This document shows positions 275-16,999 of a DNA stretch of 27,314 bases, piece by piece. Both the position numbers and the translations under genes were made by a program. The notes under the pieces were generated by a model. The model did no database searches and had not been told where the DNA came from. It worked only from the letters and a program-made list of their open reading frames with translations. Positions within the stretch are counted from its first letter, which is position 1. Each line of letters opens with the position of its first letter. Source of the DNA: a virus; the IMG/VR virus record IMGVR_UViG_3300025096_000098, positions 1-27,314 of that record; one strand, written 5' to 3'.

Positions 275-282
275 CTAAATAG
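275..282 (+). promoter_or_regulatory. T4-type late promoter-like box (CTAAATAG) upstream of the giant fibre
   Basis: CTAAATAG lies 32 nt before the ATG of the 1793-aa fibre gene. T4 late promoters use TATAAATA at -10; cyanophage versions are relaxed relatives. The same core recurs before the next three structural-region genes (5694, 7820, 9299), so the assignment rests on recurrence as well as likeness. There is no -35 element, as expected for a sliding-clamp-activated late promoter. Confidence 0.5.
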
Positions 283-313: not shown

Positions 314-3300
314 ATGCCTCTTAATAAGTTAGAGAATTTTATTAAGAATACGGAAGGACGTATTCTATATGTTAATCCCAATGACCTTGATTCGACTGAT
401 GCGATTACTAATCAAGGTAATTCGTTAGCACAACCTTTCAAAACGATTCAAAGAGCACTCATTGAATCTGCAAGATTTTCATATCTGAGAGGTAATAATA
501 ACGATACGGTAGAAAAGACAACAATACTTTGTTTCCCTGGTGAACATGTAATTGATAACAGACCAGGTTATGCTATTAGGGATGATGGTGGAACTGCAAG
601 AATTGTTCCTCCAGCAGGTGGATTAGGTGTAGTTGCATCTACTTCCGATATGTCATTGACATTATCATCTAATTTTGATATTACTCAAGATGATAACGTT
701 CTTTATAAGTTTAATAGTATTAATGGTGGTGTTGTAATTCCCCGTGGTACTTCGATTGTTGGTCTAGATTTAAGAAAGACTAAGATAAGACCAAAATACG
801 TTCCAAACCCAACAGATAGTAGTGTTAATAAATCTGCTATATTCAGGGTAACGGGTTCATGTTATTTTTTCCAATTCACCTTCTTTGATGGTGACGATAC
901 TGGATTAGTTTATACAGATAGTTCAGACTTCTCAGAAAATAATCAATCAAAACCAACATTCTCTCACCACAAATTAACTTGTTTTGAGTATGCTGATGGT
1001 ATTACTGTACCTGCGGGATATAGTATTACTGATCTTGACATGTATTATAGTAAGCTCTCTAATGCATTTAATACGGAGTCTACTAGAAATATTGATCAGA
1101 AGTATCCAGGTGCTGCTGATGGATTTGCAAAACAAAGACCTGAATGGGAAATTGTTGGTGCATTTGCAACTGACCCAATTACCATTAGTAAGGTTATTTC
1201 TGGTGATGGATATGCTGCTGGTCAAGTTGTTACCGTTACAACTTCAACAGAACATGGATTAAATGCAGGAACTCCTATTAAGATTAAAGGAGTTACTACT
1301 ACAGATTATAATATCTCGACGGTAGTTCAGAGTGTAACTAATGCAACTCAATTCACTTATTTACTACCATTCGTAAGAGATACTTTACCACCTTCTCCAG
1401 GTGTATCTTCTGCGTCAGTAACTATTGAGACTGATACTGTATCTGGTGCTTCCCCATACATCTTTAACTGTTCTTTACGCTCTGTATGGGGTATGAATGG
1501 TATGAAGGCAGATGGTGCTATGTCATCTGGATTCAAATCTATGGTTGTTGCTCAGTTTACTGGTGTTTCACTACAGAAAGATGACCGTGCATTTGTAAAA
1601 TATAATAAGACTTCTAGATCTTATGAAAGTATTGCAATAACCTTGGAAAGGGGATCTGCACTTGCACAGGGATCATCATCTCTTAATGCAACTAAGGTAT
1701 ATCACTTAGATTCTGATGCCATTTATCGAAGTGGATGGGAAGGAAGTCATATTAAGATCACAAATGATGCTGTACTTCAGATTGTTTCTGTATTTGCTAT
1801 TGGATACAATAAGCACTTTGATATTCAATCTGGTTCTGACGCATCAATTACTAACTCAAACTCTAACTTTGGTCAGATCTCGTTAGCTGCTGAAGGATTT
1901 AAGACTAAGGCATTTGATAAGGATGATGCTGGTTATATAACAAATATAATTACACCAAAAGCAATTACATCAAAAGATAACAACATTGATTGGGTTGAGT
2001 TTGATGTACAAAAGACTAAGACAGTTGGTATTTCTAGTCATGTTTATTTGTATGGTTATGAAGATCAGGATGATGTACCTCCTATCACATTAAGAGGTTA
2101 TCGTCTTGGTGCTAAGACTAATGATACAGTATTTGTAGATATAGGTGGCGTTAAGACAGCAGCATTCCACATGACTGGTGGTGGAACTAGTGTAAGCGAA
2201 AAATCATATGTAGTTATAAGTGGACCTTCATATATTGCTGGTAATACGGCATTATCTAATATATTTGATATTGGAGCACATAATATTCAAACAGGTGAAA
2301 GTGTAAGAATTATTAGTAACGACGCAGATTTACCAGAGAATATCGAAGACAATCGAGTCTATTATGCAATTCGTCATTCTAATACACAAGTTAAATTAGC
2401 ATCTTCAAAGACCAATGCTGATAATAGTAAAGCAGTTACTATTTCTGGTGGAACACAACTTAGGATTGTTAGTAGAGTACATGATAAAGAATCTGGTGAT
2501 ATAGGTGCTCCAATTCAGTGGGATACTACCAATAATCAATGGTATGCTCATTTACCTGGAACCAATGATGTTTATAGTGCAATTGGTGGATTAGGTGGTA
2601 CTGTTGCTAAAACCGAAGTATCGTACATAACAAGAAAAGAAGATCCAAGATCATTAGATGAAAAGATTTATAAGATGCGTGTTGTTATTCCTAAGGAATC
2701 AGTAAACGCAAAGGATCCTAATGAAGGATTTGTTATTCAAGAATCCAGTACTACTGGACCTAGATCAAATAGTGATTTTACGATAGCAACTATTGATGAA
2801 AATGATTATGGATATAATAGGAACCCAAGATTTATAAGTACTTGTTCTGTATCTGGTAGTACTGTTACTGTTGTATCAGAATTGCCACATAATCTGAATA
2901 TTAGTGATGTTGTTACTATTAAGAATGTTACTAGTTCCACCAATACTGTTGGTGCAGCAAGTAGTGGATATAATAGTACATTTGCTGTAACAAGTATCAG
3001 TGATGATAAAACATTCACATATACAACAACAGATACTGTAGGAGTTACACATAATCCTGGGTTGTTTAATAATGATGTGTCTAATAGAGATACAACATTA
3101 CCAAGATTTGATAGAAATGATCTTAAATCCAATTATTATGTTTATAGAAATGAAACTATAAGTCCATATATTCGTGATGTTCAGGATGGTATCTATCATC
3201 TATTTGTATTACAAGCTGATAATCAAGTCCCAACAGAATTTACGGGTTTGAAGTATGGTCAGAATGTTGAGAATCTTTATCCACAGCAAGATAAAGATAA

Positions 3301-5695
3301 TGCTAATGATAACCCACAGGCATCAGTTTCATTTGCTAAGAGACATCCATTAGGTGATGTTTCTACTGATGAACTTAAAAATAGTATAACAAGAGAATCT
3401 GCTGATAATTTCTTAAAGGATATTGGTCTTGGTCATCAGATCACCAGTGTTCTAACTGATACTACCGCTGGTATATCTACACTTACTTTTGGTAGAGCAC
3501 ATACATTTAGTGGAATTGCTACTCATACTAATGTAGCAGGATGGGGTGGTGCTAATTATATTCCAACATCTGGAATTTCCACATACTATAATGTTAAATT
3601 ATTGAATGGTGGTTCTAATCCTTTATCTGGTAGCACATGGGGTGGTGCAACTGCTCAAGTAACTGTTGCTAATGGTGCTATTGTTAATGCTGACGTTATG
3701 AATCCTGGTTCAGGATATAATGCTGTTGATTTGTATTTCGATCAGTCAGTTGTTGGTGCTGGTAATGGTAATGCTAGATATCGAGTTACTACTAAGACTC
3801 TTGCTACTAACGTTAATGATGTAGTACAAATATCTGGTATTGGTACTGTTACAGATGGTGTATATCGTATAACTTCTGTTCCTACTAGTAACAAGATTGC
3901 TATTGCTATTACTGCTGGTGATCCTGGGATTATTGCTTCTCAATATACGTTAGCAGTTGGACCTTCTGTATCAGTTTCTTCTGATACTTATGATACTACT
4001 ACTGGTATTTCAACATTCACATGTGGTGTTGGTCATGGATTAGTATCTGGTAACAAGTTTAGGGTTGTAGATAGTAATGATAATAATCAAGGTGATTTCT
4101 ATGTTAAAGAAAGACTAAGTGTTACAAAGTTCTCAGCAGTTACTAATTTATGGGATATAGTTGCTTCTCGTATTTTAAGTCATGGGATGGGTGCTGCTAA
4201 TGCACCATCTGATGATGCAAATGAAAATATAGGAGCAAGAGGACTGTCACTTTATAGTGGAGACTATGTAACTCTTGGTGCTGCTTCTGGATCTGGTAAT
4301 TCACTTCAGATTTCAATACCAAATTCTGGTATTGGTACAGTAAGTAGATTACCTCTTGGATCGTATGTCCAAGTTGATAATGAGATTATGAGAGTTACTA
4401 GCTCTGCTCCAACTGGTGGTGGATTTAATCAGATTACTGTAATTCGTGGTTCTCTGGGTACTAACAAGGCAGATCATGCTATTAATTCAGTTGTTAAGAA
4501 GATTAAACCATTAGCGATTGAATTCCGTCGTCCATCTATCATTCGTGCATCTGGTCATACCTTTGAGTATCTTGGATATGGTCCTGGTAACTATTCTACT
4601 GGTTTACCGCAGGTTCAGGTTAGGACTCTTAGTGAAAGAGAAGAGTTTCTATCACAAGCACAAGAAAGATCTTGTGGTGCGGTTGTTTACACTGGTATGA
4701 ATAATGATGGTGACTTTTACATTGGTAATAAGAGAGTTAGCTCCGCAACTGGTCAGGAGACTACCTTTGATGCTCCGATTCCTACTGTTACAGGTCAAGA
4801 TCCTTCAAGACTTAGTGTAGTATTTGATGAGGTTGTTATTAAAGATAGACTAATTGTTGAAGGTGGTACATCGGATAGGATTCTATCTCAGTTTGATGGT
4901 CCAGTTACCTTTAACCAAGAAGTTAAGGTTAATAATAATGTTGTTATTACTGGAACATTAAAAGTTTATGATGCTGTTTATTATATTGCTGATACACAAT
5001 CAAATGATAAGGACACTGGTTGTCTTGTGCTTGATGGTGGACTTGGTGTTGAGAAGAATATTAATGTTGGGGGTCATTCAAAAGTAACAGGTATCAGTAC
5101 GTTTATTGGATTACTTGATGCTGATGGTGGTGCTGAGATTAAGAATGTTCGAATTGGAGTTAATGCTGCTAATGAGATTGACACATCAAGTGGTAATCTA
5201 GTACTTGATTCTGCTGCTGGTACTGTAAATGTTACCGATATACTTACGGTGTCTGGTGTTGTAAATGCAAATGCTAATACTGCATCTACAAGTGGATCTA
5301 CTGGTGCTCTTGTAGTAGCAGGTGGTGTTGGTATTGGTGGTGACTTACATGTTGCTGGTGATATTTGTGCGTTCTCTACTTCTGATAGTAACTTAAAATC
5401 TAACGTTACTGTAATTCCTAATGCTCTTGATAAGGTTAAGGCTATTAGTGGTAATACATTTACTTGGAATGATAATGCTACTGAATCTATGCGTGGAGCA
5501 CCTGATACTGGTTGTATTGCACAAGAAGTTGAAGCACTTGGATTACCTGGAATTACTTCTACCAGAGATTTAACTAATGCAGTTGGTTATGGTGAGACTA
5601 TGACCGAACTCAAATCCGTTGACTATAAGCGACTTGTTCCTCTTCTTATCGAAGCAATTAAGGAACTTTCTGCAAAAGTCGATGCACTGTCCTAA
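314..5695 (+). CDS. Giant tail-fibre/structural protein with C-terminal S74 self-cleaving chaperone
   Basis: A 1793-aa virion protein, probably a long fibre. The N-terminus (about residues 15-80, NTEGRILYVNPNDLDS, then a conserved Q-PFKTIQRALIESARFSY stretch) resembles the start of phage beta-helix fibres. The middle holds diverged modules with an HGL-x2-G core and a downstream TxFTY strand (near residues 300-355, 848-910 and 1235-1275), probably beta-sandwich repeats. Around 1400-1470 is a block seen in cyanophage fibres (FRRPSIIRASGHTFEYLG). The last ~104 residues form a peptidase S74 / endosialidase chaperone: TSDSNLKSN, then TFTWN, GCIAQEVEALG and VDYKRLVPLLIEAIKEL. In that family the chain cuts itself between Ser and Asp of the SD motif, here Ser1690-Asp1691, after trimerisation. 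No Shine-Dalgarno precedes ATG 314; a late box lies at 275-282. Confidence 0.9.
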   Translation: MPLNKLENFIKNTEGRILYVNPNDLDSTDAITNQGNSLAQPFKTIQRALIESARFSYLRGNNNDTVEKTTILCFPGEHVIDNRPGYAIRDDGGTARIVPPAGGLGVVASTSDMSLTLSSNFDITQDDNVLYKFNSINGGVVIPRGTSIVGLDLRKTKIRPKYVPNPTDSSVNKSAIFRVTGSCYFFQFTFFDGDDTGLVYTDSSDFSENNQSKPTFSHHKLTCFEYADGITVPAGYSITDLDMYYSKLSNAFNTESTRNIDQKYPGAADGFAKQRPEWEIVGAFATDPITISKVISGDGYAAGQVVTVTTSTEHGLNAGTPIKIKGVTTTDYNISTVVQSVTNATQFTYLLPFVRDTLPPSPGVSSASVTIETDTVSGASPYIFNCSLRSVWGMNGMKADGAMSSGFKSMVVAQFTGVSLQKDDRAFVKYNKTSRSYESIAITLERGSALAQGSSSLNATKVYHLDSDAIYRSGWEGSHIKITNDAVLQIVSVFAIGYNKHFDIQSGSDASITNSNSNFGQISLAAEGFKTKAFDKDDAGYITNIITPKAITSKDNNIDWVEFDVQKTKTVGISSHVYLYGYEDQDDVPPITLRGYRLGAKTNDTVFVDIGGVKTAAFHMTGGGTSVSEKSYVVISGPSYIAGNTALSNIFDIGAHNIQTGESVRIISNDADLPENIEDNRVYYAIRHSNTQVKLASSKTNADNSKAVTISGGTQLRIVSRVHDKESGDIGAPIQWDTTNNQWYAHLPGTNDVYSAIGGLGGTVAKTEVSYITRKEDPRSLDEKIYKMRVVIPKESVNAKDPNEGFVIQESSTTGPRSNSDFTIATIDENDYGYNRNPRFISTCSVSGSTVTVVSELPHNLNISDVVTIKNVTSSTNTVGAASSGYNSTFAVTSISDDKTFTYTTTDTVGVTHNPGLFNNDVSNRDTTLPRFDRNDLKSNYYVYRNETISPYIRDVQDGIYHLFVLQADNQVPTEFTGLKYGQNVENLYPQQDKDNANDNPQASVSFAKRHPLGDVSTDELKNSITRESADNFLKDIGLGHQITSVLTDTTAGISTLTFGRAHTFSGIATHTNVAGWGGANYIPTSGISTYYNVKLLNGGSNPLSGSTWGGATAQVTVANGAIVNADVMNPGSGYNAVDLYFDQSVVGAGNGNARYRVTTKTLATNVNDVVQISGIGTVTDGVYRITSVPTSNKIAIAITAGDPGIIASQYTLAVGPSVSVSSDTYDTTTGISTFTCGVGHGLVSGNKFRVVDSNDNNQGDFYVKERLSVTKFSAVTNLWDIVASRILSHGMGAANAPSDDANENIGARGLSLYSGDYVTLGAASGSGNSLQISIPNSGIGTVSRLPLGSYVQVDNEIMRVTSSAPTGGGFNQITVIRGSLGTNKADHAINSVVKKIKPLAIEFRRPSIIRASGHTFEYLGYGPGNYSTGLPQVQVRTLSEREEFLSQAQERSCGAVVYTGMNNDGDFYIGNKRVSSATGQETTFDAPIPTVTGQDPSRLSVVFDEVVIKDRLIVEGGTSDRILSQFDGPVTFNQEVKVNNNVVITGTLKVYDAVYYIADTQSNDKDTGCLVLDGGLGVEKNINVGGHSKVTGISTFIGLLDADGGAEIKNVRIGVNAANEIDTSSGNLVLDSAAGTVNVTDILTVSGVVNANANTASTSGSTGALVVAGGVGIGGDLHVAGDICAFSTSDSNLKSNVTVIPNALDKVKAISGNTFTWNDNATESMRGAPDTGCIAQEVEALGLPGITSTRDLTNAVGYGETMTELKSVDYKRLVPLLIEAIKELSAKVDALS

Positions 5696-5701
5696 TAAAT
5701 A
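5694..5701 (+). promoter_or_regulatory. Late promoter-like box (AATAAATA) overlapping the stop of the giant fibre
   Basis: AATAAATA begins inside the TAA stop of the preceding gene (5693-5695) and lies 17 nt before the ATG at 5718. It differs from the T4 late consensus TATAAATA only at the first base. The implied transcript would have a leader of about 10 nt without a Shine-Dalgarno sequence. Confidence 0.5.
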
Positions 5702-5717
5702 ACTAAAAAATATAGTA

Positions 5718-7823
5718 ATGCCTAATATAAGGAAGAGTTTTAACTTTAGGGATGGGGTCCAAGTTGACCAAGATGATTTTATCGTAAGAGGTAATCTCGT
5801 CGGTATTGGAACGACTGTCCCTGCTGAGAAGTTGGACGTTAAAGGTAACGTATCTGTTAGTGGGGTAGTTACAACTAATAATCTATATGCTTCTGGTACT
5901 GCTACTCTAACTGAGGTTAGGATGGGTGCTGGCATTACAATGTCTTCGGCAAGTGGAATTATAAGTGCAACTTCATTCTATGGTAATGGAGCAAACTTAA
6001 CAAATCTTCCAACTTCTGCATGGTCTAATGCTGGATCTGGTTTAGGAATTTATAATTTATCTCGTGCTGGTGTAGGAACTAATAATCCAGTTTATGCTCT
6101 TCAAGTTGGTGGTAATCCCATTCTTTATCCTGGGGTTGGTGTTAGTACAGAAGGAAATGTTCTTGTATCTGGTATATCTACATTTAGAAATGATGTTGTA
6201 ATATCAACTGGTTCTAGTGTTAGTTTTGGATCTACTGCATATTTCCCCGAAGATGTTAAAGCGATTTTCGGTAATAATGTGTTTAGCATTTATAATGACG
6301 GTACGGATAGTATAATTGATACTAATAGTGGTGAATTGAAGCTTCTAGGTTCTCAAGTAAGTGTAAGATCTGATAATGGTGCAGAAGTACAAGCAGTATT
6401 TAATGAAAATTCACATGTAAATCTCTATTATAATAATGACAAGCGATTCTCTACTTCTGGAATTGGAGTCACAATATATGACCACATAGAAACAGGATCA
6501 ATTAATCTAGCTAGTGACTTGAGTGTTACCGGTGTTTCTACATTTGCAGATGCTATAACTGCTGAAGAAATAACTCTTCAAGATGGTAAGAAATTAAACT
6601 TTGGTAATAGTGAAGATCTAGCAATATATCATGATAATAGTCTCGGTTCTCAAAATGATAGTAATGGAGATTCAATTTGTAATAGTTTCGCTTCAATAAT
6701 TAAGGAAGATGGACCAGGGGGATTAATATTTAAGTCAAATGGTGGCGATGGGCCAGGAGCATTTCAATTCTTTGATGATACTTGGCGACCAATATTAAAA
6801 TTACATAGTGGTACTAATTCCAGAGTAATTTTATTCCATAAGGCTAAAGAACGTTTAGCAACTAATAGTGATGGTATAAGTATTTCAGGTTCAGGAACAG
6901 AAACATTATTAGATGTTACTGCAACTGGAAGTGTATCGCGATTGCGTGTAGGAGTTGGTGTTGGTAACAGTACTGCTGTTTTCAAATTTAGTAATAAAAA
7001 TCTTGATATCTTTAATAATGATACTGGTAACGTTACCACGTATCTCCATAAAGGTGGTGTTGGTGTAAGTACAGGTAGTTTTGATTGGGTATATGGACAG
7101 ACTAATGCTCAGTTAATGACTCTCACTTATGGTGGTAGTTTAGGATTAGGTGTTGATGCTCCTGTTAATACTTTACATGTAGTAGGAACATCTACTGTTA
7201 CATCTAATGCTTGGGTTGGTGGTAATTTGGGTGTTGGTGGAACTATTACAGGAACTATTAATTATCCAGATGTAATTACTGGTACTAATCTTAATAATAC
7301 TTCTGGACTTTCAACTTTCTTTAATATACGTGCTTCTAAGATAGGAATTAATATTTCTTCTCCAAGAGTAGAGTTAGATGTATTCAGTGGAAAAGGTATT
7401 TTCCAAGGTGTTGGTATAGGAACTACAAATCCAATAGCGGTATTGGATGTTAAGGGAATTGCTTCATTTGAGAAGGTTGGTATTGGAACAACCGCAATGC
7501 ATCAGATAACGGGGACTAATTGTGGAGATTTCCAAGTACATAATAGTAAGATAACATGTTGGGATCAAGCAATTACTGTTGCTACTAGTAGTATGGGATC
7601 AAGGATTGGTGTTGGAACGATTTCTCCTAGATGTGCCGTTGACTTCTCTGATGCTGGTACTGGTGCTATAGGTGCTGCTGCTGGATTTATGATGATTCCA
7701 CGGGTTAGTTCAACTGTAAGAGATAATTTCCAAGTGTCCGCTGCACCTGGATCAGTTATATACAATACAACTACCAATAAGATGCAGTGTCATAATGGAT
7801 CTGGTTGGCAGGATCTATTCTAA
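5718..7823 (+). CDS. Tail fibre-like structural protein with repeated GxGTxxP units
   Basis: A 701-aa protein, very probably a fibre or fibre-associated protein. The start (MPNIRKSFNFRDGVQVDQDD) leads into the first of several repeats of the form (I/L)G(I/V)GTxxPxxxLxVxG: VGIGTTVPAEKLDV at about residue 28, VGVGTNNPVYALQV near 118, LGLGVDAPVNTLHV near 475, IGINISSPRVELDV near 545, VGIGTTNPIAVLDV near 568 and IGVGTISPRCAVDF near 630. Such repeats form beta-rich trimeric shafts in phage fibres. The C-terminus (GSVIYNTTTNKMQCHNGSGWQDLF, quoted in part as VIYNTTTNKM) is a common fibre tip ending. It directly follows the giant fibre and shares its base composition and SD-less start. Confidence 0.85.
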   Translation: MPNIRKSFNFRDGVQVDQDDFIVRGNLVGIGTTVPAEKLDVKGNVSVSGVVTTNNLYASGTATLTEVRMGAGITMSSASGIISATSFYGNGANLTNLPTSAWSNAGSGLGIYNLSRAGVGTNNPVYALQVGGNPILYPGVGVSTEGNVLVSGISTFRNDVVISTGSSVSFGSTAYFPEDVKAIFGNNVFSIYNDGTDSIIDTNSGELKLLGSQVSVRSDNGAEVQAVFNENSHVNLYYNNDKRFSTSGIGVTIYDHIETGSINLASDLSVTGVSTFADAITAEEITLQDGKKLNFGNSEDLAIYHDNSLGSQNDSNGDSICNSFASIIKEDGPGGLIFKSNGGDGPGAFQFFDDTWRPILKLHSGTNSRVILFHKAKERLATNSDGISISGSGTETLLDVTATGSVSRLRVGVGVGNSTAVFKFSNKNLDIFNNDTGNVTTYLHKGGVGVSTGSFDWVYGQTNAQLMTLTYGGSLGLGVDAPVNTLHVVGTSTVTSNAWVGGNLGVGGTITGTINYPDVITGTNLNNTSGLSTFFNIRASKIGINISSPRVELDVFSGKGIFQGVGIGTTNPIAVLDVKGIASFEKVGIGTTAMHQITGTNCGDFQVHNSKITCWDQAITVATSSMGSRIGVGTISPRCAVDFSDAGTGAIGAAAGFMMIPRVSSTVRDNFQVSAAPGSVIYNTTTNKMQCHNGSGWQDLF

Positions 7824-7827
7824 ATAA
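7820..7827 (+). promoter_or_regulatory. Late promoter-like box (CTAAATAA) overlapping a stop codon
   Basis: CTAAATAA covers the TAA stop of the 701-aa fibre (7821-7823) and lies 22 nt before the halogenase ATG. It is the third of four nearly identical boxes in the structural block and suggests that the halogenase is transcribed late together with virion genes. Confidence 0.5.
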
Positions 7828-7848: not shown

Positions 7849-9306
7849 ATGAAAAAAATTGTTATTGTTGGGGCAGGGTCTTCTGGACTGATTACTGCTG
7901 CCATGATGAAGAATTATTGGGGTGATAAAGTCGATATCTCAGTATATTATGATAAGAGTAATAAGAATATTGCAGTAGGAGAAAGCACTACACCAATCAT
8001 TCGTTTATTATTAAGTCACCTTGGAATGAGTACAGGAGATTTGTTTCAAGAGTTAAAGACTAGTGCTACCATGAAGTTAGGGATTCATTTTAAAGAATGG
8101 ATTCCTGATACTGAATATTTTCATGGTTTTGGTCAGATTTATATGGATTCATATAGAAATTCATCTTCTCTATATTCTATTCCAGAAAATAAGTTTAAAG
8201 GTGGACAAAATTATGGTGAACCAACATACAATATTCCTGATAGACCATTTGAAGAATATGACTATGCATTTCATATTGACACACAAGAATTTTCAGATCT
8301 TATATTTAAGAAGTTAGAAAATAAAGTAAACTTTGTTGATACAAGAATTAAGAATGTAGTTTCTGATGGTAAGAATATCATTAGTCTTGTTACAGAAGAG
8401 GATGAAATTGTAACAGCAGATTTATTTGTTGATTGCTCTGGGTTTAGTACCATATTGTTTAAACATCTTAATCCAAAGTGGAATGATATTTCTGATGCTT
8501 TACCACTTGATAGGGCAATAGCACAACAAGTTCCACATAAGTTTATGAAACTGCCAGCATTTACTGTGGCAGAAGCAACTGATAATGGGTGGACATGGAG
8601 AATACCAATAGGAGACAGGTATGGAACAGGATATGTTTATTCTTCAAAATTTATATCTGATGATGAGGCAAGAGAGAAGTATGATGCTTGGTTGTTTAAG
8701 AATTTAAAGGTACATCTGGATACTGATCGGATCATTCGGTATAGGCCAGGTTATTATGATAAGTATTACATAGGAAATTGTTTAGCAGTAGGACTTTCTA
8801 GTGGATTCGTTGAACCATTAGAATCTACAGGATTGCAAGTTGTTATCCAACAGGTTCAAGAGTTCTTAACTATAAATTCCACATTATTGAATTTGGATTA
8901 TAATAGAAAACTTTTGAATGCAAGTAATACGAAATTATATGTTGATATCGTTGATTTCATTTGTTTACATTATAATACTAATAGGACTGATTCTGAGTTT
9001 TGGAAATATATGACAGATAATAAAACAGAATGGGTTAAACAATTTGATGCTAAATGTAGAGCAGAATTTTTAGATTCTAGGTCTTCTTTTCGTGAGAAAA
9101 CTTTCTGGGGTCTTGATAGTTGGGTTCAGGTATGTGATGGACTTAAGATGTTTAATAATGATTCAATTCAGAATTTCTTAGAGTCTAAGAATGATCGTAA
9201 TATAATATCATTACAGGCAAAGGAAGATGATAGGTATCAAAAGGATGAGAAGAGCAGAATTAAATGGATCTCACATAGGAAAGTATTAGACTCTTTGACT
9301 AAATAG
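7849..9306 (+). CDS. Flavin-dependent (tryptophan-type) halogenase
   Basis: A 485-aa FAD enzyme of the PrnA/RebH family, which uses FADH2, O2 and halide to make hypohalous acid and halogenate aromatic substrates. Seen here: Rossmann GAGSSG at residues 8-13; GESTTP at 44-49; the lysine equivalent to PrnA Lys79 at Lys76 (SATMKLGIHF); the family hallmark WTWRIP at 248-253; and SGFVEPLESTG at 318-328, with Glu325 matching PrnA Glu346. So the active site looks intact. Length is slightly below PrnA/RebH (about 530), mainly in the C-terminal half that shapes the substrate pocket. A cyanophage relative, VirX1, is known to iodinate varied aromatics; substrate and halide here are unknown. It sits between fibre genes behind a late-type box, unlike most host-derived metabolic genes. 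It needs a flavin reductase, not seen in the window, so presumably a host one. Confidence 0.9.
   Translation: MKKIVIVGAGSSGLITAAMMKNYWGDKVDISVYYDKSNKNIAVGESTTPIIRLLLSHLGMSTGDLFQELKTSATMKLGIHFKEWIPDTEYFHGFGQIYMDSYRNSSSLYSIPENKFKGGQNYGEPTYNIPDRPFEEYDYAFHIDTQEFSDLIFKKLENKVNFVDTRIKNVVSDGKNIISLVTEEDEIVTADLFVDCSGFSTILFKHLNPKWNDISDALPLDRAIAQQVPHKFMKLPAFTVAEATDNGWTWRIPIGDRYGTGYVYSSKFISDDEAREKYDAWLFKNLKVHLDTDRIIRYRPGYYDKYYIGNCLAVGLSSGFVEPLESTGLQVVIQQVQEFLTINSTLLNLDYNRKLLNASNTKLYVDIVDFICLHYNTNRTDSEFWKYMTDNKTEWVKQFDAKCRAEFLDSRSSFREKTFWGLDSWVQVCDGLKMFNNDSIQNFLESKNDRNIISLQAKEDDRYQKDEKSRIKWISHRKVLDSLTK
9299..9306 (+). promoter_or_regulatory. Late promoter-like box (CTAAATAG) overlapping the halogenase stop
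   Basis: CTAAATAG ends in the TAG stop of the halogenase (9304-9306) and lies 20 nt before ATG 9326. It is identical to the box at 275-282. Confidence 0.5.
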
Positions 9307-9325
9307 AAAAAAGTATATTCGATTA

Positions 9326-10525
9326 ATGGGTATAGCAGTTACAAAATACGGTCCATATTTTGCTGGTAGTGGTGGTGTTTCACCAAATAATCAGACTAAT
9401 ATGAAATTTAGTCAGATGAGAGATACTTTTAGATTAACAATGCCTGGCCTTGACGGAACTCCAGGTACTGCAACAGGTGGTACAGAGATTAAAGCATCAG
9501 AATTATTGAGAGTTACTGATGTAACTAATACAAATCCCAATGTTCCAGATTGTACTGAAAATAATGATGTAGGTGCAGTGAATGATTGGAAAGTTTCTCA
9601 GATTAAAGATAGTATTAAGTATTATTATGTTACTCAGACTGGAACAAATATTAATTTTGATATAGATCAGTCAAGTTGGAATGATAATTTACATAAAAGC
9701 ATCCTTAAATGGATGAATGTTGATGGGACGTGTGGATCAAATAGTAGTAATGTTTCTGCTGCTGACCTTAATGCAACAGCAAATAATTTAACCATAGATG
9801 TCACTGGGACTATTATGGGTGGTCGTGGTGCAGGTGGTACTGAGGTAACAATTAGTGGTGATGCTGGTGGTAATGCTTTAACCATAACATCATCTAGTGC
9901 TAATAATCTTAGAGTACATGTTCAATCAGGTGCTAAAATATATGGTGCTGGAGGAGGTGGAGAATTTGGAACTGTTGGAGCTCAGGGATCATCAGGAACT
10001 TGTTCTACTTACGAGTTAAAAACTGCAAATAGTGGTTGTAATTCTTGTGGAGATTGTGGAGCAGGTTGGGAAAGATATGGTGGATGTAGCACAGCAGGTC
10101 AAGGATTGTGTGATTGCCATTCAAGTTGGGGTTGGACTTGGTGTAATGGTAGATATCAAACAGCAGCACTATGTCGTAGACACACTTATACAACAGTATC
10201 AGGAGGTATTGGTGGTAATGGTGGTAATGGTGGGCCTGGAAGAGGATATAATAATCAATCTGGATCATTAGCAGGTTCTGGTGGTGGTGCTGGTACTGCT
10301 TGGCCTGGATGTCCTAATCCACCTTATACTGGAGGTGTTGGTACTCCTGGTCAACCTGGAGATCCTGGAACTGCAGGTGGTAGTGGTGGAGAATGGGGTT
10401 TAGCAGGTGTTAATACTCCTGCCAGTGGTAATGGTGGTGTTGCTGGTAAAGCAGTATCAGGATCTAATTATTCTGTTGTTGGTGTAATTAATAATAGTAC
10501 CGTTAGGGGAGCATTTAATCCATAA
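9326..10525 (+). CDS. Gly-rich adhesin-like fibre tip protein with Cys/Trp-rich insert
   Basis: A 399-aa protein, probably a receptor-binding or fibre-tip protein. Residues 1-130 look like a virion attachment region (KFSQMRDTF, then ASELLRVTDV, a pattern of small cyanophage fibre proteins). Residues 150-215 form beta repeats that end in IYGAGGGG. Residues 226-283 are a striking insert with nine cysteines (226, 238, 241, 244, 254, 262, 264, 273, 283) and a Trp cluster (SSWGWTWC, 266-273). From 292 to the end the chain is Gly-rich (GGIGGNGGNGGPGRG; GTPGQPGDPGTAGGSGG), like the polyglycine loops of T4-type gp38 adhesins, which contact the host receptor. It lies directly behind the halogenase. 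Alternative: a non-adhesin structural protein. No signal peptide or membrane helix is seen. Confidence 0.75.
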   Translation: MGIAVTKYGPYFAGSGGVSPNNQTNMKFSQMRDTFRLTMPGLDGTPGTATGGTEIKASELLRVTDVTNTNPNVPDCTENNDVGAVNDWKVSQIKDSIKYYYVTQTGTNINFDIDQSSWNDNLHKSILKWMNVDGTCGSNSSNVSAADLNATANNLTIDVTGTIMGGRGAGGTEVTISGDAGGNALTITSSSANNLRVHVQSGAKIYGAGGGGEFGTVGAQGSSGTCSTYELKTANSGCNSCGDCGAGWERYGGCSTAGQGLCDCHSSWGWTWCNGRYQTAALCRRHTYTTVSGGIGGNGGNGGPGRGYNNQSGSLAGSGGGAGTAWPGCPNPPYTGGVGTPGQPGDPGTAGGSGGEWGLAGVNTPASGNGGVAGKAVSGSNYSVVGVINNSTVRGAFNP

Positions 10526-10550
10526 TATATAATTTAATTGAACTTATATC

Positions 10551-10826
10551 ATGCCTGAATATCCTTCATTACAAAAACAACTGAATAACTTTAAGACTTC
10601 TTTTGCTAATGTCACTCTTTCACTGGCAAATAAGAATTATAGGAAATTATTAAAAGTACCTAGTAGTATATTTAAAGAGAGATTATCTATCTGTAAAGAA
10701 TGTGATAGATATGTAGAAGAACATCACAGATGTGGAGAGTGTGGATGTTTTATTGGAATAAAAGCAAGGGTGGGTATAGAATCATGTCCCTTGAAGAAAT
10801 GGGGTGCATTGACAGATGAACTATAA
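10551..10826 (+). CDS. Small Cys-rich (zinc-knuckle-like) phage protein
   Basis: A 91-aa protein whose C-terminal half holds CKEC at 48-51, then CGECGC near 62-67, and a final Cys in SCPLKKW near 78-84. The pattern CxxC-x(10)-CxxCxC-x(n)-CPxxKW recurs in small proteins of T4-like and other phages and probably binds zinc. The N-terminal half is basic and helical. No function is established that I know of. It overlaps the next gene by 11 nt, so the two are likely translated together. ATG 10551 has no Shine-Dalgarno, like the other late genes here. Confidence 0.75.
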   Translation: MPEYPSLQKQLNNFKTSFANVTLSLANKNYRKLLKVPSSIFKERLSICKECDRYVEEHHRCGECGCFIGIKARVGIESCPLKKWGALTDEL

Positions 10827-11364
10827 AGTATTTGATTATTCTAATTCTACTAAGTTGAACTCTCTCATATATGAGATGGCAATTAATAATGCTAAATTGC
10901 ATACACCAATAACACATATTGAGGCAGCACAAATACTCTCAGAGAATAATAAAGAAGTATATGATACTAAAGGTTTGAATCCTAGAAATATTAAACATCA
11001 TCCTGGTGCTATTAAAGTTGATGGTGGTGGAGTATTATCATCTTTTATGATACATGAGTATAAAGTTAAAGAAGTGAATGATTTTTTTACTTGGATAGAA
11101 GGGATATTAGATATTAAGACAGAAATGAGTTGGATTGTAACCTATAATCAGCATCAGCGTGGTGGTAAGCATTGTCATATGGAATATGATACAACTTTTT
11201 GTTATTATGCTAATGTTCCTAATGGGTCATCACCTTTAATTATAGAAGGTGAAACAATAGAACCAGTATTGGGTAGAGTAGTTGTTTTTTCTGGACAATT
11301 AGAGCATGAGGTATTATTATCTGAGATAGATGGTCGATGTAGTTTAGTTGGGCATGGTTCATGA
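10816..11364 (+). CDS. Putative 2OG-Fe(II) oxygenase / cupin-fold protein
   Basis: A 182-aa protein whose C-terminal half matches the layout of small phage 2-oxoglutarate/Fe(II) oxygenases: a strand ending in QHQRGGKHCHMEYD (112-125, candidate metal ligands His121 and Glu123, or His119), a strand FCYYANVP, a proline/glycine turn, then GRVVVFSGQLEHEV (153-166, distal ligand His164) and Arg174 in the last strand, which in the family binds the 2OG carboxylate. These enzymes hydroxylate or otherwise oxidise protein side chains or small molecules. It overlaps the Cys-rich gene by 11 nt and ends the late block that contains the halogenase and the adhesin. HxE instead of the usual HxD makes the call tentative; a non-enzymatic cupin is the alternative. 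Confidence 0.55.
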   Translation: MNYKVFDYSNSTKLNSLIYEMAINNAKLHTPITHIEAAQILSENNKEVYDTKGLNPRNIKHHPGAIKVDGGGVLSSFMIHEYKVKEVNDFFTWIEGILDIKTEMSWIVTYNQHQRGGKHCHMEYDTTFCYYANVPNGSSPLIIEGETIEPVLGRVVVFSGQLEHEVLLSEIDGRCSLVGHGS

Positions 11365-11430: not shown

Positions 11431-11480
11431 AGGGACCAGAAGGGAAACTGGCACAGGCACTCCAACACGGGGTGCTTTTC
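11431..11480 (+). ncRNA. Candidate ~50-nt small RNA with terminator
   Basis: Between a TATAAT box (11419-11424) and a second one (11484-11489) lies a compact segment with no ORF. It contains a first hairpin, CCAG 11436-11439 with CTGG 11448-11451 around a purine loop AAGGGAAA, and a second, GCACTCC 11457-11463 with GGGGTGC 11469-11475 around AACAC, ended by TTTT. That is the layout of a short terminated sRNA. The same segment could instead be only a leader plus terminator upstream of the helicase. Confidence 0.35.
11457..11479 (+). terminator. Intrinsic terminator before the helicase unit
   Basis: A 7-bp GC-rich stem (GCACTCC / GGGGTGC, one G-T wobble, loop AACAC) is followed by TTTT. The next promoter -10 begins only 5 nt after the T run. 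Confidence 0.6.
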
Positions 11481-11489
11481 TGCTATAAT
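11481..11489 (+). promoter_or_regulatory. Extended -10 promoter (TGCTATAAT) for the helicase operon
   Basis: TGC followed by TATAAT is an ideal extended -10 element; no good -35 lies upstream, which extended -10 promoters do not need. The expected start near 11496 gives a 16-nt leader to GTG 11512. Confidence 0.55.
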
Positions 11490-11511
11490 AGGTTTATATT
11501 AATGGAACACT

Positions 11512-12678
11512 GTGCAACTACGTCCCCACCAACAGGAAGCATTGGAAGCAATGACAAGAACCTCTAAGGGACAGATCATCGTTCCTACGGGCGGTGGTAA
11601 GACTCTTGTGGCAATTAATGATGCCATGCGTCAATTAGAAGATGGTCATAAGACTATTGTTGTAGTTGCTCCACGCATCCTATTAGCAGAGCAATTGAGT
11701 TCTGAGTTCTTGGAAGAGATTGAGAATGTATCTGTGATGCACGTACATAGTGGTGAAACACATCATTATAGTACAACTAAGAGTGATGAGATTCAAGAGT
11801 GGGTAAGTAATACACAGGGTAGTAAGATTATCTTTACAACATATCATTCACTTCATAGATTGGTAGAGGCAGATGTTGTTGTAGATACGATATACTTTGA
11901 TGAGGCACACAATTCAGTCCAGAGGAATTTCATAGAGTTTGTTGAGTATTACTCATTAAATGCAGATAGATGTTATTTCTTCACTGCTACGCCAAAACAT
12001 TCACTAACTCCCATGAGGGTGGGTATGAATGAACATGATATATTTGGTAATGTTATTTGTAACGTACCAGCACCTAAGTTAGTAAAGGAAGGATACATTC
12101 TACCACCAAAAGTAAAAGTATATAAGACAGACATATTACAGAAGGATGAAATAACATTTGATGTAGAATGTAATCAGATCATGGATAACATTGATGACCA
12201 CAATACTAAGAAGATCTTGGTATGTGCTAAGTCAACTAAGCAGATCAAAGGATTAGTATCCTATGATAAGTTCCTTGACGAATTGGCATGGAGAGGTTAT
12301 ACTTGCATGTATATTACATCTAAAACTGGTGCAGTCATTGATGGTGAGAAAGTAAGTCGGGATGAGTTCTTTAATGTACTGAGTGCATGGGGTAAGGATG
12401 ATGATAAGAAGTTTGTTGTCTTGCATCACAGTATCCTAGCAGAAGGTATTAACGTAAAAGGACTTGAAGCAGTCTTATTCTTACGTTCTATGGATTATAT
12501 CGGAATATCACAGACAATTGGAAGGGTTATAAGAAAAGGTAGCAAGGAGAAAACGTATGGATTAGTGTGCGTTCCTGTATACTCTAAGGTGGGTATTAGT
12601 ACAGCACGTAGAGTACAAGCAGTAGTTGATCTTGTATTCAAGCAGGGTGCACCAGCAATATCGGTGGTAAGACGATGA
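11512..12678 (+). CDS. SF2 DEAH-box helicase
   Basis: A 388-aa superfamily 2 helicase. Motifs in order: Q-like RPHQQEAL (4-11), Walker A PTGGGKT (25-31), FTTYHS (108-113), Walker B DEAH (130-133), motif III TATP (158-161), a C-terminal RecA lobe with ILAEGINVKGL (308-318) and motif VI QTIGRVIRKG (334-343). It should hydrolyse ATP to unwind or remodel nucleic acid. It resembles UvsW-type and restriction-like helicases of T4-like phages but lacks an N-terminal extension of UvsW, so I give no symbol. The start is GTG at 11512, since the upstream ATG at 11502 is out of frame. It overlaps the HAD gene by 4 nt and heads an operon behind an extended -10 promoter. Confidence 0.85.
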   Translation: MQLRPHQQEALEAMTRTSKGQIIVPTGGGKTLVAINDAMRQLEDGHKTIVVVAPRILLAEQLSSEFLEEIENVSVMHVHSGETHHYSTTKSDEIQEWVSNTQGSKIIFTTYHSLHRLVEADVVVDTIYFDEAHNSVQRNFIEFVEYYSLNADRCYFFTATPKHSLTPMRVGMNEHDIFGNVICNVPAPKLVKEGYILPPKVKVYKTDILQKDEITFDVECNQIMDNIDDHNTKKILVCAKSTKQIKGLVSYDKFLDELAWRGYTCMYITSKTGAVIDGEKVSRDEFFNVLSAWGKDDDKKFVVLHHSILAEGINVKGLEAVLFLRSMDYIGISQTIGRVIRKGSKEKTYGLVCVPVYSKVGISTARRVQAVVDLVFKQGAPAISVVRR

Positions 12679-13373
12679 GAAAATTCATTTTTGATGTTGA
12701 TGGGACTATCACTCCCAGTAGGCAAAAGATAAACATACATTGCCTGACTTTCTTCAATGAGTTTGCATCTAATCATGATGTTTACCTTGTGACTGGAAGT
12801 GATCGAGAGAAGACCATAGAACAGATAACACCCATACTATATGATAATTGCAAGAGAGTTTATAACTGTTCTGGCAGTGATGTGTATGAGCAGCATAGAA
12901 GTGTTTATAGAGATAGTTGGGGATTACCAGAAGATGTGAAGTGGTTTTTATATGATGAATTAGATAACAGTCAGTTTCCTCTTCGTAATGGATTACATAT
13001 TGAGATAAGGCCAGGAGGTGTTAATTTTAGCATCTTAGGTAGAGGTGATGATTATGGCAGAAATGAGTATGTGAAGTGGGATAAAGAGACTAATGAGAGA
13101 AGAGATATTGCTGATAGACTTAAAGATCATTTCCCAAACTTAGAAGTACAAATAGGTGGACAGACTGGACTTGATCTAGCACCATTAGGAGTAAACAAGA
13201 GTCAAATACTGAGAGATTTTAGTATTGATGATGAGTTACATTTCTTTGGTGATATGATGGAAGAGGGACAGAATGATTATCCTTTAGCAAAGGCAGTAAA
13301 GGAACGTGGTGGATATACCTATTGTGTTAAGGACTATCATGATACAATGGCAAAGGTATCAGAAATACTATGA
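12675..13373 (+). CDS. HAD-superfamily phosphatase, phosphomannomutase-like
   Basis: A 232-aa HAD protein most like the eukaryotic-type phosphomannomutase/cof branch. Motif I is FDVDGTIT (6-13, nucleophile Asp7, acid/base Asp9), motif II VTGSD (39-43), the cap has IEIRPGGVNFSILGRG (109-124), which parallels the PMM substrate loop, then GGQTGLDLAPLGVNKSQ (161-177), and motif IV GDMMEEGQND (192-201). It would act on a sugar phosphate, either isomerising or dephosphorylating it. It overlaps the helicase by 4 nt upstream and the nucleotidyltransferase by 4 nt downstream, suggesting that the last two make or recycle an activated sugar or polyol. Substrate unknown. Confidence 0.8.
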   Translation: MRKFIFDVDGTITPSRQKINIHCLTFFNEFASNHDVYLVTGSDREKTIEQITPILYDNCKRVYNCSGSDVYEQHRSVYRDSWGLPEDVKWFLYDELDNSQFPLRNGLHIEIRPGGVNFSILGRGDDYGRNEYVKWDKETNERRDIADRLKDHFPNLEVQIGGQTGLDLAPLGVNKSQILRDFSIDDELHFFGDMMEEGQNDYPLAKAVKERGGYTYCVKDYHDTMAKVSEIL

Positions 13374-13807
13374 AGGAAGTTATTATTGTTACTGGTGGAT
13401 TTGATCCATTACATTCAGGGCACATTGCTTACTTCCATGCAGCAAGGGAACTTGATTCTAGTCTAAGTCTTGTAGTGGGTGTGAATTCGGATGCTTGGTT
13501 AACTAGAAAGAAAGGTAAACCATTCATGCCAATAGAAGAAAGAGTTACAATTCTTAAAGAGTTAAAATCAGTTGATGTTGTGATTGAATTCAATGATAAG
13601 GATGATAGTGCTTGTGATGCAATTAGGATGGCATTAGAAATATATGATAGAGTAATATTTGCTAATGGTGGGGATAGGCATAATGAGAATACATTAGAGT
13701 ACATTACATTCAAGGATGATGAGAGAGTTATATTTAAATGGGGTGTAGGTGGAACAAATAAACTTAACAGTAGTTCATGGATTCTGGATGGATACTATGC
13801 CAGTTGA
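13370..13807 (+). CDS. Cytidylyltransferase-like nucleotidyltransferase
   Basis: A 145-aa protein of the HxGH nucleotidyltransferase superfamily. The start has GGFDPLHSGHIAYF (9-22) with the HSGH signature, followed by VVGVNSDAWLTRKKGKPFMP (motif around 35-54), EERVTILKEL (56-65) and a later GGDRHNE. This pattern fits glycerol-3-phosphate cytidylyltransferase or the heptose-1-phosphate adenylyl (HldE C-terminal) type: NTP plus phospho-sugar/polyol gives the NDP derivative and pyrophosphate. The ATGA overlap with the phosphomannomutase-like HAD gene suggests one pathway. It ends an operon; the next gene has its own TATAAT box. Confidence 0.8.
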   Translation: MKEVIIVTGGFDPLHSGHIAYFHAARELDSSLSLVVGVNSDAWLTRKKGKPFMPIEERVTILKELKSVDVVIEFNDKDDSACDAIRMALEIYDRVIFANGGDRHNENTLEYITFKDDERVIFKWGVGGTNKLNSSSWILDGYYAS

Positions 13808-15978: not shown

Positions 15979-16313
15979 CTATAACAAATGACAACATAAT
16001 AACAATAAATCTTAATAAACTTGCTGCAATTAGAGCAGCATTCCTTGAGGAGAAACTTACTGATGATGAGATTGATGAAGTGGCAAGTGAACTTCGAGTT
16101 AGAATGTCCTTTGATTCACTTTATGGGCAGGTTGATGATATGATATGGGAGATAACAGAAAATACTGATATGTTACCACAATACGGTCAGATATCACCTG
16201 AGCCTGGACGTGAGGCATGGTTAACAGAGATGGAAAAGAATAAAATGCAGTTTGAAATGGTTGATTTGGTATCACCAGCATGGACAATTAAAGTCCCAAG
16301 GAGGATAAAATGA
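15975..16313 (+). CDS. Hypothetical protein, 112 aa
   Basis: An alpha-helical protein with an amphipathic block LNKLAAIRAAFLEEKLTDDEIDEVASEL (about residues 13-40) and a second block WLTEMEKNKMQFEMVDL near 82-98, ending in a basic VPRRIK. It lies immediately upstream of ho1 with a 4-nt overlap, and a Shine-Dalgarno for ho1 (AGGAGG, 16300-16305) is within its last codons. Not recognised. Confidence 0.6.
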   Translation: MTITNDNIITINLNKLAAIRAAFLEEKLTDDEIDEVASELRVRMSFDSLYGQVDDMIWEITENTDMLPQYGQISPEPGREAWLTEMEKNKMQFEMVDLVSPAWTIKVPRRIK

Positions 16314-16999
16314 CAGTAGCAGATTTTTCTAAGCAATTAAAAGAAGGGACTAAACGATCTCATACCGCAGCAGAGAATACTAAATTTGTAAAGGGATTTC
16401 TTCGTGGTGTTGTAAACAAAGACAGTTATAGAGTATTGATTACTAATTTCTATTTTGTTTATAGAGCAATGGAAGAGGAAATAGGTAATCTAAAGGATCA
16501 TCCTATTGTTGGTCCTATTGGTTCTGATCTACTCCATAGGACTGAACCACTGTCGAGAGATCTTAGATATTATTATGGACCGAATTGGAGAGCGATTATT
16601 GCTCCTACCGAAGCAGGTCAACAGTATGTAAATCGTATTAGAGAGGTAGCAAAGAATGACCCAGAATTATTGGTTGCTCATCATTACACCCGATACATGG
16701 GTGATCTTTCAGGTGGACAGATACTTAAAGGCATTGCAGAAAAGGCAATGGTTCTAAGAAAAGGTGAGGGATTACATTTCTATCAATTTGAGAACATTAC
16801 TGATGCAAGAGGATTTAAAGAGTCCTATCGTACCATACTTGATGGATTACCAATAGAACAATCTATGGTTAATGCTATTGTGGCAGAAGCGAATTATGCT
16901 TTTAGGTTAAATATGTACATGTTTGATGAGTTGCAAGGTAATTGGTTAGCATCATTTATTAAGGTTCTCTTTGGTACTGTTAGAGGTAAATTGTTATGA
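16310..16999 (+). CDS. ho1: Heme oxygenase (cyanophage type)
   Basis: A 229-aa heme oxygenase that would cleave heme to biliverdin IX-alpha, CO and Fe2+ with ferredoxin electrons, the first step of bilin synthesis for phycobiliproteins and phytochromes. The proximal heme ligand is His18 in KRSHTAAEN; the distal helix carries HHYTRYMGDLSGGQILKG (124-141) with the family GDLSGGQ. Length is typical of cyanobacterial HO1 (about 230-240). Phage ho1 is often beside a bilin reductase (pebS or pcyA); no such gene follows here. The ATGA overlap, upstream AGGAGG and the consensus promoter at 15670 place it in an early operon of small genes. Confidence 0.95.
   Translation: MTVADFSKQLKEGTKRSHTAAENTKFVKGFLRGVVNKDSYRVLITNFYFVYRAMEEEIGNLKDHPIVGPIGSDLLHRTEPLSRDLRYYYGPNWRAIIAPTEAGQQYVNRIREVAKNDPELLVAHHYTRYMGDLSGGQILKGIAEKAMVLRKGEGLHFYQFENITDARGFKESYRTILDGLPIEQSMVNAIVAEANYAFRLNMYMFDELQGNWLASFIKVLFGTVRGKLL

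Follow-up and report, generated by a model that had tools for sequence, protein, structure and literature searches.

A probable adhesin-finishing cassette with a flavin-dependent halogenase in a T4-like cyanophage

The halogenase locus at the end of the fibre module

The stretch of DNA analysed here (the window) comes from a virus record and spans 27.3 kb. Its two fibre genes are followed by a halogenase gene, an adhesin gene and two smaller genes (Table 1). The ORF check placed these four late-region genes consecutively on the plus strand, at the coordinates given in the initial annotation. The halogenase slot lies directly 3' of the 701-aa distal fibre gene, and the DUF6171 and 2OG-oxygenase-like genes overlap by 11 nt. 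Every protein of the region can be assigned to a family or fold already known.

Table 1. Genes, tip insert and late-type boxes of the window (nucleotide positions).
Feature	Coordinates	Strand	Evidence
CTAAATA late-type box, before the fibre gene (ATG 314)	275..281	+	
Long tail-fibre gene, 1793 aa, S74 chaperone C-terminus	314..5695	+	phrog_529 E 0; PF13884 1.8e-9
ATAAATA late-type box, before the 701-aa tail gene	5695..5701	+	
Distal fibre (gp37-position) tail protein, 701 aa	5718..7823	+	phrog_3269 E 2.7e-53; synteny in relatives
CTAAATA late-type box, before the halogenase	7820..7826	+	
Flavin-dependent halogenase, 485 aa	7849..9306	+	PF04820 1.1e-85; active-site residues
CTAAATA late-type box, before the adhesin	9299..9305	+	
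gp38-type receptor-binding adhesin (predicted), 399 aa	9326..10525	+	AF2 model, Z to S16 and PP01 gp38
Cys/Trp-rich tip insert, adhesin residues 213-292	9962..10201	+	9 Cys; W248, W268, W270, W272
DUF6171 small Cys-rich (zinc-ribbon-like) protein, 91 aa	10551..10826	+	PF19668 6.6e-10
2OG-Fe(II) oxygenase-fold protein (predicted), 182 aa	10816..11364	+	weak PF13759; predicted structure

The halogenase and adhesin genes had been described as standing behind the same late-type boxes as the fibre genes, and CTAAATA does precede one fibre gene and both of them. The three copies in Table 1 are the only ones in the whole window, with none on the minus strand. Among relatives, TAAATA was present within 40 nt upstream of 47 of 95 adhesin genes and 8 of 24 halogenase genes, against a background of 1.8%.

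The assignment of the first gene as a flavin-dependent halogenase with an intact active site was upheld. In the Pfam profile search the protein matched PF04820 with 288.7 bits (cut-off 21), by a wide margin the best model, and it also matched phrog_2928 (E 2.9e-95); NCBIfam gave weak matches to GoxB, QhpG and LodB. The closest PDB entries were Trp 5-halogenases (1.7e-49), and the nearest solved relatives use free Trp as substrate. The GxGxxG (G8/G10/G13) and WxWxIP (W248xW250xxP253) motifs are intact, as are the catalytic K76 and E325, and all are kept in every relative whose sequence covers them. The N-terminus is the FAD-binding motif itself (MKKIVIVGAG), with no visible export signal. No flavin reductase was seen among the window genes scanned.

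The predicted gp38-type adhesin and the genes behind it

Sequence searches with the adhesin gave weak matches only. Its AlphaFold (AF2) model, built from 34 input sequences (pLDDT 81.5), resembled S16 gp38 (6f45_D; Z 18.1, Foldseek E 7e-3) and PP01 gp38 (9v85_A; Z 16.5, Foldseek E 2e-6), the next unrelated structure scoring Z 4.3. The protein is thus predicted to be a T2/S16-type gp38 adhesin with a polyglycine-II sandwich fold. Its variable segment lies between Gly-rich blocks and its gene at the end of the fibre module, and the tip insert occupies the position of the hypervariable receptor loops of gp38. The earlier description of a fibre-tip-like protein with a Trp/Cys cluster agrees with this model fold and with the 9-Cys, 4-Trp insert. 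The gp38 profile PF05268 was not reported among the Pfam matches of the window adhesin; a match to it has been published for the homologue in the Synechococcus phage S-SRM01 (PMC8557907). A likeness of the tip to the resistin head domain was too weak (Z 3.7) and was dropped. Receptor contact in gp38 is made by the loops protruding from the polyglycine sandwich (PMC12892980), and modification of the tip would therefore be expected to affect host recognition.

The third protein, initially annotated as zinc-knuckle-like and Cys-rich, is a small, Cys-rich, zinc-ribbon-like DUF6171 protein (PF19668, 39.7 bits, cut-off 27). Of 74 adhesins that have a Cys-rich stretch, 65 adjoin DUF6171, compared to 1 of the 11 that lack such a stretch. 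Adhesin and DUF6171 form the stable core of the locus, and it is the Cys-rich tip that DUF6171, to judge by this association, most likely serves.

The fourth protein scored below the Pfam threshold (PF13759, 22.3 vs. cut-off 27), although its model (pLDDT 70) has the fold that its designation as 2OG-oxygenase-like implied: Z was 14.7 to 2rg4 and between 12 and 14 for many 2OG oxygenases, and the matched structures include protein prolyl hydroxylases (Z 12-13 to prolyl hydroxylases). A 2OG-oxygenase fold, the double-stranded beta-helix, is therefore predicted. H119, H121, H164 and R174 are conserved in nine relatives; the acidic ligand of the HxD/E...H iron triad was not found. The gene was found elsewhere only in locus L139, as an identical copy, which rules out the four-gene cassette as one unit. 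Enzymes variably present after DUF6171 include PF13759 and PF13640 2OG oxygenases, a JmjC/cupin protein and DUF6445; the 2OG gene belongs to this shuffled set of oxidative enzymes and occurs sporadically.

Linkage and co-variation of the halogenase and the adhesin tip

A clade scan with the halogenases of the window, of L003 and of S-SRM01 as queries gave 19 clade loci, and separate scans were run with the adhesin and with DUF6171; the surveyed loci are mostly contig fragments. The adhesin lies directly 3' of the halogenase in 17 of the 19 clade contigs, and DUF6171 comes next in all 16 clade loci with enough DNA. The L016 contig ends 378 bp past the halogenase, and its next ORF is a different one, resembling the ORF upstream of the L003 halogenase. 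L028 is a true exception, a clade halogenase without adhesin linkage. The complete S-SRM01 genome harbours exactly one halogenase, in the same slot and with the adhesin next. In several loci without a halogenase the tail protein directly adjoins the adhesin, and 16 of the 17 contigs with an empty slot, which are fragments, carry no halogenase elsewhere. The halogenase is an accessory gene, cleanly present or absent at one slot. A divergent halogenase in L045 occupies a different slot, after DUF6171, also with a Trp-bearing tip.

Among distant cyanophage-type halogenases a fibre gene was nearby in 3 of 67 loci, and some other cyanophage halogenases sit in metabolic or tRNA regions. Fibre linkage as a constant of all cyanophage-type halogenases is ruled out by the distant loci; the proposed halogenase-adhesin linkage is near-constant in the clade of the window and mostly absent elsewhere.

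Co-variation was analysed along the DNA order halogenase, adhesin N-domain, shaft, tip and C-part by correlating pairwise identities, with Mantel tests, which do not fully remove phylogeny. Halogenase identity correlated with tip identity at Pearson r 0.89-0.90; the values were 0.62 for the N-domain, 0.64 for the shaft, 0.52 for the C-part and 0.65 for the upstream gene. Given N-domain, shaft and C-part, the partial r between halogenase and tip was 0.81-0.82 (permutation p 0.0005 for 0.82), and 0.77-0.79 after dereplication (p 0.0002). In the reverse control, halogenase against N-domain given the tip, the partial r was 0.23. In comparable loci the halogenase reached a partial r with the tip of 0.81, DUF6171 0.64, the upstream tail gene 0.36 and the helicase 0.33. 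Physical linkage alone should make the N-domain the part most closely tracked, but the halogenase tracks the tip instead. A sliding window over the halogenase spread this co-variation along the enzyme rather than confining it to one region.

Mosaic loci point in the same direction. L002 shares with L019/L020 83-86% identity in the N-domain, 78% in the shaft and 72-80% in the C-part, with 49-51% in the tip and 60% in the halogenase; L017 shares with L019 56% in the N-domain, 81% in the tip and 84% in the halogenase. Together with the co-variation, we interpret these mosaics as enzyme and tip being exchanged in matched pairs. Part of the co-variation could come from neutral recombination of a conserved adhesin frame rather than from selection. 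Co-variation beyond the rest of the adhesin supports the tip as the partner of the halogenase. Of the initial suggestion that the enzymes of the cassette modify the adhesin or other virion proteins, the part concerning the halogenase is strengthened by this result; the part concerning the 2OG gene is not, since that gene is no constant member of the cassette, and its joint role with the halogenase is an analogy only.

Trp occurs in each of the 25 tips whose adhesin neighbours a halogenase, compared to 18 of the 38 others (Fisher p 3e-6, raw), with a mean of 3.9 and 1.2 tip Trp respectively; Trp outside the tip did not differ (3.3 vs. 3.0). Tyr content of the tips did not differ between the two groups, and Tyr was dropped as the favoured target. 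With tips clustered, the Trp association gave p 0.006 at 70% identity and 0.026 at 60%, and was not significant at 50%; phylogenetic contrasts, drawn on a quick tree, left only two independent pairs on well-supported branches. Trp presence was rejected as stand-alone proof, the independent contrasts being too few after phylogeny. L216 was scored as having no adjacent halogenase; it has one at a distance of 1 kb upstream, and its tip holds three Trp.

A proposed role for the halogenase and its relation to known systems

Taken as one joint claim, it is probable that the source virus is a T4-like cyanophage, that the region is an adhesin-finishing cassette and that the halogenase acts on Trp of the tip within it; the chemistry is a proposal. 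More tentatively, the phages of this group may halogenate Trp in their own adhesin insert and swap enzyme and tip as a matched pair. Under the joint claim, the phage would make a T2/S16-type gp38 adhesin in which a compact, Cys-rich insert bearing Trp stands in for the receptor-binding loops, with the DUF6171 protein most likely aiding the folding or handling of that insert. The halogenase, with its own late-type promoter box, would most likely act on at least one insert Trp before fibre assembly, using reduced flavin supplied by the host, and the changed Trp would alter the adhesin surface that contacts the host receptor. The 2OG oxygenase may be a further tailoring enzyme of this sort, one that the cassette can do without.

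Co-variation of halogenase and tip would also be accounted for, with no modification of the adhesin, if the enzyme modified a host receptor or surface molecule, for example blocking re-adsorption of progeny, and the tip followed the same receptor. Superinfection exclusion of this sort would fit late expression. However, such action leaves the Trp in every halogenase-linked tip unexplained, and it requires an aromatic receptor group accessible from the cytoplasm, the enzyme opening with its FAD motif and having no visible export signal; we regard it as unlikely. It is similarly unlikely that the halogenase is an auxiliary metabolic gene with free Trp or a host metabolite as substrate, its place in the fibre module being a chance effect of late expression. 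This is the literature view of cyanophage halogenases (PMC10452541), and the free-Trp substrates of the nearest solved relatives and the metabolic or tRNA surroundings of some other copies are in its favour, but neither the conserved position of the gene, with the distal fibre gene on one side and gp38 on the other, nor co-variation with an 80-residue tip follows from it.

The target could also be the tip and the chemistry another, the flavoprotein hydroxylating tip Trp/Cys or helping to crosslink them in the manner of QhpG or LodB/GoxB (protein-derived quinones). QhpG, whose fold resembles that of halogenases, introduces two hydroxyl groups into Trp of a crosslinked protein (PMC7876137), and a different oxidation of the tip is therefore conceivable; the weak NCBIfam matches and the many Cys near Trp in the tips are consistent with it. 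Conservation of the catalytic Lys and Glu wherever they are covered, and PF04820 as by far the best-scoring model, argue against it and make it quite improbable.

With the proposed action on tip Trp, one halogenase clade would have a concrete protein partner, down to an insert of 80 residues, and S-SRM01 is a cultured phage that carries the halogenase-adhesin pair. If the proposal is true, phage binding chemistry extends past the 20 amino acids, the host-contact surface of the virion is the work of a dedicated halogenase that phages can exchange, and the matched enzyme-tip pair is a natural protein-halogenation system. The literature searched, which omitted most subscription papers, yielded no paper on halogenated phage tail fibres or on DUF6171, nor was any description found in it of the conserved slot, of DUF6171 as a constant partner or of halogenase-tip co-variation.

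S-SRM01 (NC_070963, gp52-gp54) has the same gene order of fibre, tail protein, halogenase, adhesin, DUF6171 and helicase, with 51% identity in the halogenase and about 50% in the gp38-type adhesin. It differs in having no 2OG gene. Its genes carry annotations, the adhesin among them as a gp37-gp38 tip, but have never been read together as a cassette, and the paper in which the adhesin was so named makes no mention of the halogenase (PMC8557907). The gp38 of T2, S16 and PP01 (6f45, 9v85) shares with the window adhesin the predicted polyglycine-II sandwich, the predicted position at the end of the long tail fibre and the hypervariable segment between Gly blocks. By contrast, the window adhesin has an insert of about 80 Cys/Trp-rich residues instead of hypervariable loops, and is accompanied by a dedicated DUF6171 protein and tailoring enzymes. 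VirX1, the halogenase of cyanophage Syn10 (6qgm), is likewise a viral PF04820 halogenase, but it is only distant kin of the clade of the window (the syn9 copies are 23-24% identical) and has no adjoining gp38/DUF6171 pair; in syn9, a close relative of Syn10, a tail fibre is followed downstream by two halogenases, and 2OG genes accompany them. Cyanophage 2OG oxygenases have been read as modulators of host 2-oxoglutarate/nitrogen sensing (PMC3037559).

A precedent for halogenation of peptide-bound Trp is given by MibH and SrpI, flavin halogenases that modify Trp in ribosomal peptides (PMC12615548, PMC10858898). Their substrates are natural-product peptides, whereas the window adhesin is a virion-type protein of 399 aa, and no RiPP cluster was seen with the window halogenase; the likeness is functional only. 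MibH requires prior macrocyclisation or crosslinking of its substrate together with Pro hydroxylation (PMC12615548, PMC10858898), and this substrate is a functional analogue of the Cys-rich, possibly hydroxylated tip.

Coordinates of features in the window and in related viral loci (positions within each locus)
Locus	Feature	Position	Match
Window	Phosphomannomutase/HAD-like, then cytidylyltransferase-like protein	12675-13807	
Window	Heme oxygenase	16310-16999	PF01126, E 2e-77
L008 (S-PM2)	Halogenase	8983-10473	
L065	Adhesin	11455-13017	
L140	Adhesin-DUF6171 region	3-2678	
L216	Tandem DUF6171 genes	5361-6136	
L245 (S-SSM7)	DUF6171-2OG oxygenase region	5992-7503	
L246 (Sf-FS3)	DUF6171-2OG oxygenase region	5992-7401	

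DUF6171, adhesins and oxygenases

In S-SSM7 and Sf-FS3, 2OG oxygenase genes lie immediately after DUF6171, with no annotated adhesin close by. This placement suggests a DUF6171-oxygenase link in its own right. In L140, DUF6171 was 86% identical to the window copy, and the adhesin ahead of it was very different from that of the window and far larger (>780 aa); here DUF6171 was retained and the adhesin swapped. Three tandem DUF6171 genes followed a single adhesin in L216, where the upstream genes include a halogenase and one that is 2OG-like. The L065 adhesin carried an additional domain of ~130 aa between the tip and the C-part, as did those of L141, L143, L144 and L146.

Halogenases of other loci

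Four to five halogenase genes were arrayed in each of L099, L131, L114, L136 and L137, with neither a window-type adhesin nor a fibre nearby. A single stop codon interrupts the S-PM2 halogenase reading frame, for which the RefSeq record has no CDS.

Host-related and metabolic genes

The phosphomannomutase/HAD-like and cytidylyltransferase-like pair in the window perhaps plays a role in sugar-nucleotide metabolism. A cyanobacterial host is supported by the heme oxygenase gene, a typical auxiliary gene of cyanophages.
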